DNA of 64,000 nucleotides, from contig DZBJ01000012.1 in assembly GCA_022736275.1 (NCBI GenBank), positions 1 to 64,000 of the forward strand. Reading direction: 5' to 3'. Each line of letters opens with the position of its first letter. The first letter of the stretch is position 1. This document shows, piece by piece, positions 36,251 to 62,736 of the stretch. The notes beneath the pieces were generated by a model, which saw only the letters and a list, made by a program, of their open reading frames with translations, did not search any database and had not been told where the DNA came from. A program made the translations under genes and the position numbers. This stretch comes from Rikenella microfusus. GTDB lineage: Bacteria > Bacteroidota > Bacteroidia > Bacteroidales > VadinHA17.

Positions 36251-36345
36251 CAGTAGGCAGTAGGGTGATACGCCGTAGGCGTTAAAGTATTGTAGGACAA
36301 TAGTCAGGAAGTAACAAATACGCCGTAGGCGTTAAAGTATTGTAG
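36251..36345 (+). repeat. Hairpin-repeat doublet 1 (GTA-loop element)
   Basis: Two copies of a 26-bp unit at 36270-36295 and 36320-36345. Each is a 5-bp stem with a GTA loop, ACGCC-GTA-GGCGT, followed by TAAAGTATTGTAG. A GGCAGTAG-type repeat precedes the doublet. The second unit ends directly at the first base of tRNA-Gly. Related doublets occur at 58081-58157 and 59548-59622. Confidence 0.88.
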
Positions 36346-57132: not shown

Positions 57133-57957
57133 TCACAATTCCGTTGCATCCTCAATATCCCTGCCGATGCTCTTCTTTAACTGATAGAGGTCCTGCTTCA
57201 TGGAGGCGACAGTGCGGAGCAGCTGTTTTTCAGGCAGGACCGGTTCCGGCAGCTCATCGCTGATGTAATGGACAAACTTCCATATCTCTCTGACGTCGTT
57301 TATATGGACCTCATAGGGTTCATACAACGGGTTGAGTGAATAGAGAATCAATTTGCCGCTCTGTTCAATGGTGTTCTCCACCACCTTGAATACGATACCG
57401 TCATTTGAGGTGAGAATTATATAGGCCTTACCGCTCTTTATCTCATGCCAGTCCTGCATATACTCACCGGTCACCCACGACCTGTCAGGGATGGGCAGCA
57501 TGGAGTCTCCCTTGAGCTGGAAGGTGCGGTACTTGCGGTTTTGTGACAGGAAAGGGAGGTTGAACAGCGGCAGATCGCCTATGAACTCGGGGTCAGCATA
57601 GCCTGTTGTGTAGCCCGCTTTGGCCTTCTCGCTGACAAGCTCGATGTTTTCGCGGTTGTCGGTGGTTACGGTGGTTGCCAGCACCCTGAGGTTACTGCCT
57701 TTGATATAGGCATCATATCCCCTCTCGAGTTCACCCAGCTGGCTTTGAGAGAGCTGTGTGAGGTCGATCTTGAGCATAGTGTCAAGCGAGATGTTGTAGT
57801 ATCCGGAGAAAGCCACCAGGGCCTCAATGCCGGGCTGTGCCACGCCGTTCTCATATCCGCTTAGGGTTGACCTCTTCATCTGCAGCGCCGATGCCACGTC
57901 GTCCTGAGTGCGTCCGCGACGCTTTCTCAAAAATTTTATGTTCGATGCGAAGTACAT
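57133..57957 (-). CDS. XRE-S24 LexA-like repressor
   Basis: A 274-aa regulator. Residues 5-60 are an XRE helix-turn-helix (RTQDDVASALQMKRSTLSGY). The C-terminal half is an S24/LexA-like self-cleaving domain. The catalytic Ser is Ser152 in LKGDSMLPI and the Lys is Lys191 in IVFKVVENT. The likely cleavage bond is Ala114-Gly115 in KAKAGYTTGY, 37 residues before Ser152, close to the LexA spacing of 34. DNA damage should therefore inactivate it. It is divergent from the dinB-type gene. Two identical operator boxes lie in the intergenic region, one overlapping its own promoter. It is a probable SOS-like repressor of the polymerase genes. Confidence 0.87.
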   Translation of the reverse strand: MYFASNIKFLRKRRGRTQDDVASALQMKRSTLSGYENGVAQPGIEALVAFSGYYNISLDTMLKIDLTQLSQSQLGELERGYDAYIKGSNLRVLATTVTTDNRENIELVSEKAKAGYTTGYADPEFIGDLPLFNLPFLSQNRKYRTFQLKGDSMLPIPDRSWVTGEYMQDWHEIKSGKAYIILTSNDGIVFKVVENTIEQSGKLILYSLNPLYEPYEVHINDVREIWKFVHYISDELPEPVLPEKQLLRTVASMKQDLYQLKKSIGRDIEDATEL

Positions 57958-57967
57958 ATTATAAAAA

Positions 57968-58036
57968 TTGATTATATTGTAATCATAAGTTTGATTAATT
58001 TCTAATCAAAGATAAATGAAGTTTTTGAAATAACAA
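57968..58036. promoter_or_regulatory. Two operators on face-to-face promoters of the S24 and polymerase genes
   Basis: Box 1 (57969-57985) and box 2 (57992-58008) both read TGATTA-N5-TAATCA (spacers TATTG and ATTTC), with centres 23 bp apart. Minus-strand promoter for the S24 gene: TTG 58036-58034, 19-bp spacer, TATCTTTG 58014-58007, overlapping box 2. Plus-strand promoter for dinB: TTG 57968-57970, TAAGTTTG 57986-57993 between the boxes. Both transcripts would start near 58000. A protein bound to the boxes would block both promoters. Confidence 0.82.
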
Positions 58037-58056
58037 GCATAAAATGAAAAAAATCA

Positions 58057-58157
58057 GGCAGTAGGCAGTAGTGGGGATTTACGCCGTAGGCGTTAAAGAA
58101 TTGTAGTGCAAGGGTACGAAAAAAAATAAATACGTCGTAGACGTTAAAGAATTGCAG
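58057..58157 (+). repeat. Hairpin-repeat doublet 2
   Basis: Two units at 58081-58106 and 58132-58157. The first is ACGCC-GTA-GGCGT; the second is ACGTC-GTA-GACGT, a compensated base-pair change. Each is followed by TAAAGAATTG(T/C)AG. A GGCAGTAGGCAGTAG stretch precedes them. They lie in the predicted leader of the polymerase transcript. Confidence 0.88.
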
Positions 58158-58185
58158 AATGCAGGACAGAAAATCAATAATTGAC

Positions 58186-58289
58186 TATAAATCGGCAGTC
58201 GGCAAATTACTGATTAAATGGCGACTGAGGACTGGAGACTGAAGACTGACTTTACTGACTTTACGGACTTTCGACTTTATGGACTTTAC
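58186..58289 (+). repeat. Intergenic repeats before the dinB-type gene
   Basis: A GACTGAGGACTGGAGACTGA-type stretch (58222-58250), followed by near-tandem GACTTTAC units (58248-58289). The ATG of the polymerase gene at 58279 lies inside the last units. A closely related GACTTTAC block lies directly before the dnaE-type gene (59656-59691). Confidence 0.8.
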
Positions 58290-59529
58290 ATCTCGCAACA
58301 TACTGCATCTTGATCTCGACACCTTTTTCGTCTCGGTGGAGAGGGTGCGAGACAGTCGTCTCAACGGACGTCCCGTGATCATCGGCGGCAGCTCGGACCG
58401 CGGGGTGGTCTCGAGCTGCAGCTATGAGGCCCGCAGCTTCGGTGTCAGCTCTGCCATGCCGATGAAGATGGCCCGTGCCATGTGTCCGGAGGCGGTATAC
58501 ATACGCGGCGACATGGAGATGTACACGAAGTATTCGCGGATGGTGACCGCGATCATTGCGGAGAGGTCGCCGCTTTATGAGAAGGCTTCGGTGGATGAGC
58601 ACTATATTGACCTCACGGGGATGGAGCGCTTCCACGGCTGTGCACGGTGGGCGCACGAGTTGCGCAACACGATCATTAAGGAGACCGGGCTCCCCATCTC
58701 TATGGGGCTCTCGGTCAACAAGACCGTCTCGAAGATCGCTGCCGGCGAGGCCAAGCCCAACGGCGAGAGGGAGGTGGCGCAGCAGCAGGTTCTGCCCTTC
58801 CTTGACCCGTTGTCTATCAGGAAGATACCCATGATCGGGCAGAAGACCTATCACACGCTGCGATCGATGGGTATCTCCACCATATGTACCCTGCGTGGCA
58901 TCCCGGCCGAGATGCTGGTGTCGCTCATGGGGCAGAACGGCACGGATATATGGAAGAAGGCCAACGGCATAGACACCACTCCCGTCATCAGCTACTCCGA
59001 GCAGAAGTCGATCAGCACCGAGCACACCTTTGACCGCGACACCACTGACACGGTGATGCTCAACCAGCTGATAGTGAGCATGACCGAGAAGCTGGCCTAT
59101 GAGTTGCGCCGCCAGGAGAAGCTGGCATCGTGTCTCACGGTGCGCATACGGTACTCCGATTTCGACACGCACACCCTGCAGCAGCGGATACCCTACACCG
59201 CCTTCGATCATGTGCTCATAGGCGAGGCGCAGAGCCTGTTCCGCCGTCTATGGCAGCGTCGCATGCTCATCAGGCTGATAGGCGTGAAGGTCAGCGGACT
59301 GGTGCGGGGAGTGCAGCAGCTTGACATGTTCGAAGACACACCCGAGATGGTGAGTCTCTATATGACTATGGATAACCTGCGGGGGCGTTTTGGCCGTCAT
59401 GCCATACGCCGTGCCGCCGGGGTGATGACCGCCGCGGAGCGCAGCGAGCGCGAGCTCAGAAAGGCGTCGGAACTTATGGCCGAGAAGTCGCGCATGGAGG
59501 AACGGCTGCGCGGCTGGCATTATCATTAG
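58279..59529 (+). CDS. Y-family DNA polymerase (DinB/UmuC-like)
   Basis: A 416-aa translesion polymerase. The catalytic acidic residues are Asp12 (HLDLDTFFVSVE) and Asp106-Glu107 (KASVDEHYID), all present. The little-finger domain follows (about 245-345), then the beta-clamp motif QQLDMF at 346-351. The C-terminal 60 residues are charged and helical. The early methionine lies within a repeat, and translation may instead start slightly later. With the S24 repressor and the DnaE-type gene it forms a damage-inducible mutasome cassette. The G+C content seems higher than in the neighbouring housekeeping genes. It could be called dinB, but family assignment (DinB versus UmuC) is uncertain. Confidence 0.9.
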   Translation: MDFTSRNILHLDLDTFFVSVERVRDSRLNGRPVIIGGSSDRGVVSSCSYEARSFGVSSAMPMKMARAMCPEAVYIRGDMEMYTKYSRMVTAIIAERSPLYEKASVDEHYIDLTGMERFHGCARWAHELRNTIIKETGLPISMGLSVNKTVSKIAAGEAKPNGEREVAQQQVLPFLDPLSIRKIPMIGQKTYHTLRSMGISTICTLRGIPAEMLVSLMGQNGTDIWKKANGIDTTPVISYSEQKSISTEHTFDRDTTDTVMLNQLIVSMTEKLAYELRRQEKLASCLTVRIRYSDFDTHTLQQRIPYTAFDHVLIGEAQSLFRRLWQRRMLIRLIGVKVSGLVRGVQQLDMFEDTPEMVSLYMTMDNLRGRFGRHAIRRAAGVMTAAERSERELRKASELMAEKSRMEERLRGWHYH

Positions 59530-59691: not shown

Positions 59692-62600
59692 ATGTATTTA
59701 AATTGCCATTCATACTACAGTCTGAGATACGGCACCCTGACGGTGGAGCGCCTTTCTGAGCTCGCCGCGGCTGCCGGCCTGCAGCGCCTGGTACTCACCG
59801 ACATCAACAACACCACCGGCGTACCCGACTTCGTGCGTGAGTGTCGCAGCCGCGGCATCACCCCGGCGGCCGGCATCGAGTTCCGCGACGGCAACACGCT
59901 GTTATACATAGGTATAGCACGCAATAACGAGGGCTTCCGCGAGCTGAACGAGTTCCTCACCCACCATAACCTCTCCGCCGAGCCCCTCCCTCCCAGGCCT
60001 CCCTCCTTCCCCAATGCATATGTGATCTACCCGGCCGGCGGCGGCGCCAACGGCAGCACCGCACCGAGGAACAATGGGTCCAACGGAGGGGTCAGCGGCG
60101 GCGCGGCAGCCCATGTCAACGGCTCCGGCAGCGGGGGTGTTGCCGGCACCGGCATCACCCCCGCCATGCTGCGTGACAATGAGTTCCTGGGCATCCGTCC
60201 CTCCGCCGCCGGCCGCCTGCTCTCCGCGGCGAAAAGCGAACTGTCAAAATACGTTATCCTCCAGCCTGTTACGATAGAGTCGCCGGCTGACTACCCCGTG
60301 CACCGCAGCCTGCGCGCCGTAGACAACAACCTCCTCCTCAGCCGACTGGAACCCGGCATGACCGCCTCTCCCGATGAGATCATAACACCTGAGAGCGAAC
60401 TGATCCGCCCGTTCAGCATGTGGCCACAGGTGGCTGAGAACACGCGCAGGCTGCTCAGCGACTGCTCCCTGGAGATAGACTTCACCACGCACAAGAACAA
60501 GAAGATATACTCGGCAAGCCGGTATGACGACAAGCTGCTGCTGGAGAAGCTGGCATGGGACGGCATGAAGTACCGCTACGGGACAAAGAACAGGGTTGCC
60601 GAAGAGAGGGTGAGGCATGAACTGGAGATCATTGACCGCCTCGGTTTTTCGGCATACTTCCTCATAACATGGGATATAATACGCTATTCGATGGCCTGCG
60701 GCTTCTACCACGTTGGCCGTGGCAGCGGGGCCAACTCCGTGGTTGCCTACTGCCTGAAGATCACCAATGTTGATCCCATTGACCTGAACCTTTACTTCGA
60801 GCGCTTCATCAACCCCAAACGCACCTCGCCGCCCGACTTCGACATAGACTATTCATGGAAGGAGCGCGACACCGTCACGGAGTATATCTTCCGCCGTTAC
60901 GGCCACCGCCATACAGCGCTGCTGGGCACCATCAACACCTTCCGCGGCAAGTCGATCGTCCGCGAGCTGGGCAAGGTCCACGGACTGCCCGTTGAAGAGA
61001 TTGACGCTCTGATCACCGATCCGTCAGCCGAGAGCAATCGCGGTGAGATACAGGATCTTATCTTCGAAACAGGCAACAAGATAGCGGACTTCCCCAACCT
61101 GCGCAGCATACACGCCGGCGGGGTGCTTATCTCCGAAGAGCCCGTCTGCTGCTATACGGCGCTTGATATGCCGCCGAAAGGTTTTCCGACAACGCAGTGG
61201 GACATGTACACTGCCGAAGAGCTGGGCTACGAAAAGCTTGACATACTGAGCCAGAGAGGCATTGGTCACATAAAGGAGAGCGCCGAGGTGATACGCGCCA
61301 ACCGTGGCGTGGATGTCGACGTGCATGCCATACAGCAGTTCAAGAACGATCCGCTGGTGAAGGACCGACTGCGTCGCGGCGACGCGAAGGGGTGCTTTTA
61401 CATAGAGAGTCCCTCGATGCGAGGACTGCTGCAGAAGCTGAGGTGCGATGATTACCTGACGCTTGTGGCGGCCAGCTCGGTCATCAGGCCGGGGGTGGCA
61501 CGCTCGGGCATGATGCGCCAGTTCATCTACCGCTTCCACAACCCTGACAAATTCGAGTATATCCACCCCGTGATGAAGGATCTCCTCAGTGAGACCTTCG
61601 GGGTGATGGTCTACCAGGAGGATGTGCTGAAGGTGTGCCACCACTTTGCGGGGCTCGACCTCTCCGACGCCGACACGCTCCGCCGGGCCATGAGCGGCAA
61701 ATACCGCTCAAGGAAGGAGATGCAGAAGATCACCGAACGCTTCTTTGCCAACTGCCGCGCAAAGGGCTATCCCGAATCGATAACACAGGAGGTCTGGCGC
61801 CAGATAGAGTCGTTCGCCGGCTACTCCTTCTCCAAGGCGCACTCGGCCTCCTACGCCGTGGAGAGCTTCCAGAGCCTCTGGCTCAAGGCTCACTATCCCC
61901 TCGAGTTCATGGTAGCCGTGATCAACAACTTCGGGGGGTTCTACCGCACATGGGTCTATGTGCACGAAGCAAAACGCGAGGGAGCCGTCATAGAAGCACC
62001 GTGCATAAACCGAAGCACATACAAAACCACCATATACGAAAAGACCATCTTCATCGGGCTGATACACATACAGGGACTGGAGGCAAACCTTGCCAGGGCA
62101 ATAATTACCGATCGTGATAACAATGTCAATTTCAATGGCATAGAGGACTTCATCTCACGTATCGGTCCTGGTCTCGAGCAGACCGTCATACTGATACGCA
62201 CCGGCGCCTTCCGGTTCACCGGTAAGAGTAAGGCACTGCTGCTGTGGGAGGCCCATTTACTGATCAACAGGGGTAAGACCGAAACGGCCCGTACCCTGTT
62301 CAACCCCGAACCGAAGAAGTTTGTCATGCCGCCCTTTGAACAGTCGAGGCTTGAGGACGCCTACGATGAGATCGAACTGCTGGGTTTTCCGGTCACACTG
62401 ACATGGTTTGACATGCTGCAGACCGGTTTCAGGGGCGAGGCCACGGTAGCCGAACTGAAGGGGATGGTGGGACGCAGGGTCAGGATGGTGGGTCAACTCG
62501 TTAATGTGAAGTATATCAAGACTGTAAAGAATGAATGGATGAACTTCGGGTGCTTCATTGACCGCAGCGGAGAGTTCTTTGACACGTCCCACTTTTCGCA

Positions 62601-62736
62601 GTCGCTTGTCAGCTGGCCATTCCGGGGCAGCGGCATCTATCTGATTCAGGGCAAGGTTGTTGAAGAGTTCGGCAGTGTCAGCCTTGAAGTTGAGAAGATG
62701 GCCAAGCTGCCAGTGCAGCCTGATCCGAGGTATTGA
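59692..62736 (+). CDS. DnaE-type (error-prone) DNA polymerase III alpha subunit
   Basis: A 1014-aa C-family polymerase. Catalytic aspartates Asp384 and Asp386 lie in PPDFDIDYSW, with the third in the GYEKLDILSQRG segment. An OB-fold at the C-terminus is followed by a short tail. It is shorter than housekeeping DnaE and has a degenerate N-terminal PHP domain: the usual HxH becomes NCHSYYS (His6 only) and the TDHN motif becomes TDIN (residues 36-39), so proofreading by PHP is unlikely. Residues 116-154 are a Gly/Asn/Ser-rich insertion. It is third in the S24-Y polymerase-DnaE cassette, like DnaE2 in ImuAB systems. It is probably used in mutagenic repair, not replication. Confidence 0.88.
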   Translation: MYLNCHSYYSLRYGTLTVERLSELAAAAGLQRLVLTDINNTTGVPDFVRECRSRGITPAAGIEFRDGNTLLYIGIARNNEGFRELNEFLTHHNLSAEPLPPRPPSFPNAYVIYPAGGGANGSTAPRNNGSNGGVSGGAAAHVNGSGSGGVAGTGITPAMLRDNEFLGIRPSAAGRLLSAAKSELSKYVILQPVTIESPADYPVHRSLRAVDNNLLLSRLEPGMTASPDEIITPESELIRPFSMWPQVAENTRRLLSDCSLEIDFTTHKNKKIYSASRYDDKLLLEKLAWDGMKYRYGTKNRVAEERVRHELEIIDRLGFSAYFLITWDIIRYSMACGFYHVGRGSGANSVVAYCLKITNVDPIDLNLYFERFINPKRTSPPDFDIDYSWKERDTVTEYIFRRYGHRHTALLGTINTFRGKSIVRELGKVHGLPVEEIDALITDPSAESNRGEIQDLIFETGNKIADFPNLRSIHAGGVLISEEPVCCYTALDMPPKGFPTTQWDMYTAEELGYEKLDILSQRGIGHIKESAEVIRANRGVDVDVHAIQQFKNDPLVKDRLRRGDAKGCFYIESPSMRGLLQKLRCDDYLTLVAASSVIRPGVARSGMMRQFIYRFHNPDKFEYIHPVMKDLLSETFGVMVYQEDVLKVCHHFAGLDLSDADTLRRAMSGKYRSRKEMQKITERFFANCRAKGYPESITQEVWRQIESFAGYSFSKAHSASYAVESFQSLWLKAHYPLEFMVAVINNFGGFYRTWVYVHEAKREGAVIEAPCINRSTYKTTIYEKTIFIGLIHIQGLEANLARAIITDRDNNVNFNGIEDFISRIGPGLEQTVILIRTGAFRFTGKSKALLLWEAHLLINRGKTETARTLFNPEPKKFVMPPFEQSRLEDAYDEIELLGFPVTLTWFDMLQTGFRGEATVAELKGMVGRRVRMVGQLVNVKYIKTVKNEWMNFGCFIDRSGEFFDTSHFSQSLVSWPFRGSGIYLIQGKVVEEFGSVSLEVEKMAKLPVQPDPRY

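Follow-up and report, generated by a model that had tools for sequence, protein, structure and literature searches.

This locus raises the question of how a repressor-like gene and a divergent pair of polymerase genes are controlled from the intergenic region between them. In the window (the whole 64-kb stretch of DNA analysed here), a leftward gene for a 274-aa XRE-S24 repressor (57133-57957, minus strand) faces away from a rightward pair made up of a Y-family DNA polymerase gene (PolY; 58279-59529, plus strand) and a DnaE-type, DnaE2-like polymerase gene (59692-62736, plus strand), and two palindromic boxes of the form TGATTA-N5-TAATCA sit between them. Box 1 (TGATTATATTGTAATCA, 57969-57985, spacer TATTG) lies on the regulator-gene side and box 2 (TGATTAATTTCTAATCA, 57992-58008, spacer ATTTC) on the polymerase side, neither being assigned a strand. 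Both are perfect matches with identical arms, as the initial annotation had described them; their starts are 23 bp apart, and they are the only perfect matches in the window, which holds seven places at up to two mismatches against a mean of 3.1 in shuffled sequence. Column frequencies in the aligned loci lengthen the arms of box 2 by flanking bases to TTTGATTA and TAATCAAA. Tandem phage operators have a spacing like that of boxes 1 and 2. The LexA boxes of E. coli and Bacillus differ from this pattern, in agreement with what had been remarked earlier. We consider it likely that the boxes form the tandem operator of an autorepressed, RecA-cleavable, non-canonical LexA-type switch that governs the mutasome.

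Relatives of the regulator were found in 103 of 117 genomes of the family (E ≤ 1e-20), in 132 of 294 genomes sampled from the order (E ≤ 1e-15; the order as used here may exceed the NCBI order) and in 229 of 296 genomes of the class (E ≤ 1e-10, paralogues included). The 80 relative loci with names belong mostly to Bacteroidales, Bacteroidetes, Bacteroidota or Bacteroidia, and one of them, from Bacteroidales bacterium isolate WOFB09 (L119), encodes a regulator with 94% identity to that of the window. With loci identical in their first 75 nt and a paralogue of 34% identity (L058) removed, the Bacteroidales set comprised 122 loci with at least 75 nt of upstream sequence. The box pair was present in 109 of these 122 loci at no more than 3 mismatches over 24 arm positions and a spacing of 23 or 24 bp, while 13 loci had no good pair. 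Conservation of the boxes beside orthologous S24 genes and polymerase cassettes had been proposed as the check on the shared-operator reading, and these 109 loci provide it. At the 23-bp spacing, 105 of the 122 loci carried a pair whose 24 arm positions held up to 5 mismatches; the pair was perfect in 53 of the 122. When each upstream sequence was shuffled once (mononucleotide shuffle), none of the 122 reached 7 mismatches or fewer, all having at least 8, and control spacings of 20, 21, 22, 25 and 26 bp yielded no locus among the 122 at up to 3 mismatches. The 24-bp spacing gave 10 loci at that threshold, which we take to be real variants. Among the 26 best-matching loci outside the window's family, at least one locus at up to 3 mismatches was found in 12 of 16 families.

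The arrangement of genes around the boxes is kept as well. Of 105 loci, 94 have a box with the spacer TATTG or TATTA next to the regulator. Where the upstream sequence reaches 1 kb or more (112 loci), PolY is found on the opposite strand within 1.6 kb in 107; where it reaches 3 kb or more (45 loci), DnaE follows PolY in 42. PolY is missing from five loci, of which four (L067, L082, L089 and L174) also lack a pair at up to 3 mismatches and the fifth (L075) has one; thus boxes, regulator and PolY go together. With position, spacing and divergent order preserved across the order, the proposal that the S24 regulator and the polymerase genes share the boxes as operators is supported.

The regulator protein itself combines HTH_3 (54.7 bits) with Peptidase_S24 (23.9 bits, barely above the 23.3 cut-off). 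The Ser, Lys and Ala-Gly bond that the initial annotation had read as self-cleavage residues are present as S152, K191 and A114-G115, and all four positions are unchanged throughout the 152 Bacteroidales sequences (genomes present twice counted); the 35 class relatives of other groups show a single change, a Ser for the Gly in one CTAA-type row. The winged HTH of canonical LexA (PF01726) is absent from the regulator, which matches HTH_3, HTH_31 and HTH_19 instead. AlphaFold, given 22 sequences, produced a model of moderate quality (pLDDT 64.0, pTM 0.39) that matches LexA structures best among PDB entries, with the HTH domains of DdrO, SinR and P22 c2 also matching; searched against the PDB by sequence, without structure, the regulator matched HTH domains alone. 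This moderate model suggests a LexA-like C-terminal fold. The regulator protein had one match in its own genome at E ≤ 1e-10, in a search that could miss distant S24 proteins, and a PF00717 profile search of the same genome missed even the window regulator and is therefore uninformative on other S24 proteins.

On the other side of the boxes, PolY (IMS and IMS_C domains) is the one Y-family gene in the genome search. All 101 aligned sequences have its residues D12, D14, D106 and E107 and the clamp-type motif Q(L/I)x(M/L/I)F, here QLDMF, so that PolY is apparently an active polymerase, judging from its residues. After the clamp motif, the tail has a conserved LYxamDxlRxRfG, which on comparison by eye is a candidate for a RecA-NT-like motif. 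The DnaE2-like gene is the second DnaE gene of the genome, and the other copy, on contig C117, matches the general DnaE model better. The DnaE2-type protein also has a Gly/Asn/Ala-rich low-complexity stretch at residues ~112-153, after the PHP match.

We also considered where transcription could start. A regulator promoter overlapping box 2 is well supported by sequence: its -7 element (TATCTTTG, TAnnTTTG, 58014-58007, minus strand) overlaps the box and is conserved in 94 of the 105 aligned loci, and a TTG 19 nt upstream (58034-58036, minus strand) is its likely -33 element, with TTG found 19 or 20 nt upstream of TAnnTTTG in 27 and 54 of the 105 loci, respectively. This promoter fits the sigma-ABfr consensus as quoted in PMC7366714. 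The initial annotation had placed two opposing TAnnTTTG promoters here, with a common start point and mutual competition. Both elements are exact in this genome and the regulator's is conserved, but the proposed polymerase -7 element (TAAGTTTG, 57986-57993, plus strand) occurs at the same place in only 22 of the 105 loci; two promoters competing from one start point are therefore not a conserved property. On the polymerase side, AAAA stands at the -33 distance and the nearest plus-strand TTG (57968-57970) is only 15 nt upstream; a search for TAnnTTTG on this side, beginning 20 nt ahead of box 1 and ending at the PolY start, gave a best place shared by 19 of 97 loci. As a guess, part of the polymerase promoter may reside in the asymmetric spacer of box 1, which is conserved.

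Putting these elements together, the S24 protein would bind both boxes with one dimer on each, and the two repressor dimers would probably be adjacent and cooperative, since the spacing of the boxes is fixed. Bound dimers would cover the regulator promoter, with its -7 element overlapping box 2, and would prevent transcription of the PolY-DnaE2 operon from starting, such that the repressor would limit its own expression and hold the mutasome off. Upon DNA damage, RecA filaments would induce the repressor to cut itself between Ala114 and Gly115 via Ser152 and Lys191, and both transcription units would be released by this self-cleavage.

The boxes were also followed beyond this promoter. In its own genome, the perfect TGATTA-N5-TAATCA pattern occurs 3 times versus 0 for a reversed-pattern control, and at up to one mismatch 13 places were found versus 1. 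A wide regulon in this genome was considered and rejected: the ten one-mismatch places are scattered, several being intragenic. recA, which follows another gene of the same strand, has no perfect box in its locus and is not a visible target in this genome. Across the 117 family genomes there are 210 perfect boxes against 19 of the reversed pattern; 96 of the genomes have at least one, and the commonest count is two (48 genomes). The switch would be mainly a one-promoter device. The third perfect box of the own genome (L031:3007-3023, contig C121) overlaps the ligA 3' end and stop codon, so coding constraint is possible there besides an operator role. It lies 47 bp upstream of a 188-aa DUF6913 gene, and in two genomes of the same genus (G093 and G094; L286 and L287) a perfect box also stands 47-48 bp before a similar 188-aa gene.

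Further perfect places in the relatives were inspected at 41 loci (14 + 27). In 17 of them the box was intragenic, and at L302 it belonged to a copy of the main operator pair located at the edge of a contig; intergenic boxes recurred at DUF3795, rSAM_link_UDG (L305, L308) and Eco57I-type methylase genes, the remainder being single cases. DUF3795 genes with a perfect box 29-40 bp upstream were found in four genomes of one sister genus (G029, G030, G068 and G085; L263, L264, L296 and L303), and are a possible further target of the repressor, in a set that was discovered via the box and is hence not an independent test. rSAM_link_UDG, a putative repair gene (TIGR03916, which we take to correspond to COG4277), scores above its curated cut-off in 4 of the 117 family genomes, with weak partial matches in 18 more and no TIGR03916 match in the window's own genome. 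A perfect box lies just upstream of the gene in all four genomes that have it; G088 and G090 were discovered via the box, and G064 and G089 are independent. G064, which is 75% complete, gave no regulator match. The gene after rSAM_link_UDG in the two loci examined (L314, L315) is TIGR03915, a putative DNA repair protein. The UDG repair system COG1573-COG4277 is named among the SOS-regulated genes of the phylum in the published account (PMC8565304). rSAM_link_UDG appears as a second repair target of the switch in related genomes. As side observations, perfect boxes stand 146 and 72 bp before Eco57I-type DNA methylase genes in L260 (G043) and L270 (G039), respectively, and L259:2001-2040 (G043) has a copy of perfect box 1 with a half-degenerate box 2 23 bp on, before a 343-aa gene without a Pfam match, which looks like a decayed or borrowed operator copy.

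The closest described systems are the XRE-S24 SOS repressors of Bacteroidetes reported by Sanchez-Osuna et al. 2021 (PMC8565304), which have CTAA-N5-TTAG or GGA-N5-TCC operators; as stated there, both operator groups are absent from Bacteroidales. According to the same account, mitomycin C induces these non-canonical LexA proteins, whose binding sites are palindromes with a 5-bp spacer, and a diverged member in E. anophelis has a TTAC-N5-GTAA site with an error-prone polymerase gene opposite. As far as they are described in PMC8565304, they have in common with the window's regulator the XRE-type HTH (PF01381) joined to S24, the Ala-Gly bond, the Ser-Lys dyad, a 5-bp-spacer palindrome in their own promoter and error-prone polymerases as targets. 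The window type differs from them in its TGATTA arms, where theirs are CTAA or GGA, in its occurrence in Bacteroidales and in that recA is no visible target here. The 300 nt upstream of the regulator contain neither CTAA-N5-TTAG nor GGA-N5-TCC in the 122 Bacteroidales loci, the window's own included. HdiR and UmuDAb, from other phyla, are likewise S24 repressors of mainly error-prone polymerases with a minimal SOS-like regulon, but they are assigned to different lineages from the window type in PMC8565304. The PolY-DnaE2 couple of Bacteroidetes, with an active PolY, was published in 2019 and 2026, the later account describing DnaE2B-PolY-RecA (PMC6511836, PMC12926913). This mutasome and the window share a Y-family polymerase with catalytic acids next to DnaE2, while the regulator and operator found here are not described in the parts of those accounts that were available. 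No paper on a TGATTA operator or on such regulators in Bacteroidales was found in the literature searched, and Table S10 of PMC8565304 could list the operator. The repressor family and the PolY-DnaE2 system are thus known already; what is new is an operator variant in a group reported to be without the family, and the kind of mechanism is not new.

A tree of 95 regulator rows (quick method, midpoint root) was built without the published reference proteins, with the CTAA group recognised by its boxes and with operator labels that are plain pattern matches, 39 of the 95 rows being labelled as other. The window protein falls in a set of 22 rows (support 99), 20 of which carry a TGATTA box; 4 of 24 TGATTA-labelled rows lie outside this set and the TGAC label is unclustered. 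A separate 24-row set (support 97) contains 14 of the 15 CTAA-labelled rows, and the deepest split of the tree is weak (69). The window protein thus appears to lie outside the CTAA-N5-TTAG clade. A close relative of it occurs together with a CTAA-type protein in six class genomes (G522, G669, G496, G568, G468 and G587). Half-sites of window-type class relatives are TGAC, GATTGT and GTTA, and the recognition helix reads KRSTLSGYEN with TGATTA, KRSSLSGYE with TGAC, SRSTLNSYEN with GATTGT and KRxxVGAYEE with CTAA, in groups for which some rows were regrouped by tree position and of which the TGAC and GATTGT groups differ from the tree labels. The agreement between helix and operator could reflect shared descent alone. 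By ancestry, the regulator seemingly belongs to the non-canonical LexA proteins of Bacteroidetes, as a subfamily with its own operator.

Several other explanations of the boxes were weighed against this switch. That they are chance palindromes has a negligible probability: the region is AT-rich and one-mismatch boxes exist elsewhere in the genome, several of them within genes, but the order-wide conservation, control spacings and shuffles, together with the excess over the reversed pattern, exclude it. It is also improbable that a regulator other than the S24 protein binds them. Binding by the S24 protein is something we infer, and other XRE proteins exist in such genomes; against this, the boxes sit at the promoter of the regulator itself, 20 of the 22 rows of its clade carry them, and most loci without PolY (4 of 5) lack a good pair too. 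A somewhat larger but still small chance is given to mirror-image TAnnTTTG promoters that share a start point and compete with each other, as the initial annotation had it. Such promoters are exact on both strands in this genome and at 21 of 105 aligned loci, and a few loci whose PolY start codon lies only 4 to 34 nt past box 2 require a start near the boxes, but the polymerase-side element is present in just 22 of the 105 loci and lacks a -33 element at the normal distance.

Slightly more probable than competing promoters, though still unlikely, is a phage-type local repressor that was captured beside the polymerase cassette. It would use the same operator and autorepression, and its release would come from an antirepressor, a protease or the like, not from RecA. 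The CI-like HTH and the matches of the regulator to phage repressor families would fit such an origin, as would boxes nearly confined to one promoter, with two perfect boxes as the commonest count per genome, and the lack of a perfect box at recA. However, the self-cleavage residues are all retained, neighbours and second targets are repair genes, not phage genes, and the published relatives respond to mitomycin C as described in PMC8565304.

On a broader scale, we give even weight to the view that these proteins are a third LexA-like subfamily of Bacteroidetes, which would act as a class-wide, dedicated mutasome repressor, coexist with CTAA-type LexA in other orders and be the only regulator of SOS type in many lineages of Bacteroidales, its operator having drifted among orders (TGATTA, TGAC, GATTGT and GTTA arms) with the recognition helix. 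If this is true, one orthologue set would provide a natural series for the rewiring of SOS operators, and the parallel helix and operator changes in class relatives would let the evolution of LexA-type operators be tested directly. The importance of the locus lies in a relative with a conserved new operator beside the mutasome, in an order reported to be without both 2021 groups (PMC8565304). If the switch is confirmed, environmental Bacteroidales would possess a damage-inducible mutagenesis switch, with targets predictable by a 17-bp pattern.

The region covered by the initial annotation ends at 58278, the last base before the PolY start codon, and 58030-58278 is mostly a leader that carries a pair of repeats (58081-58103 and 58132-58154). 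The repeat, ACG(C/T)CGTAG(G/A)CGTTAAAG(A/T)ATTG, forms two pairs with copies ~50 bp apart, the other pair standing just before a tRNA-Gly gene (36270-36292 and 36320-36342). In the whole genome, at up to one mismatch, it was found at six places versus 0 for the control.
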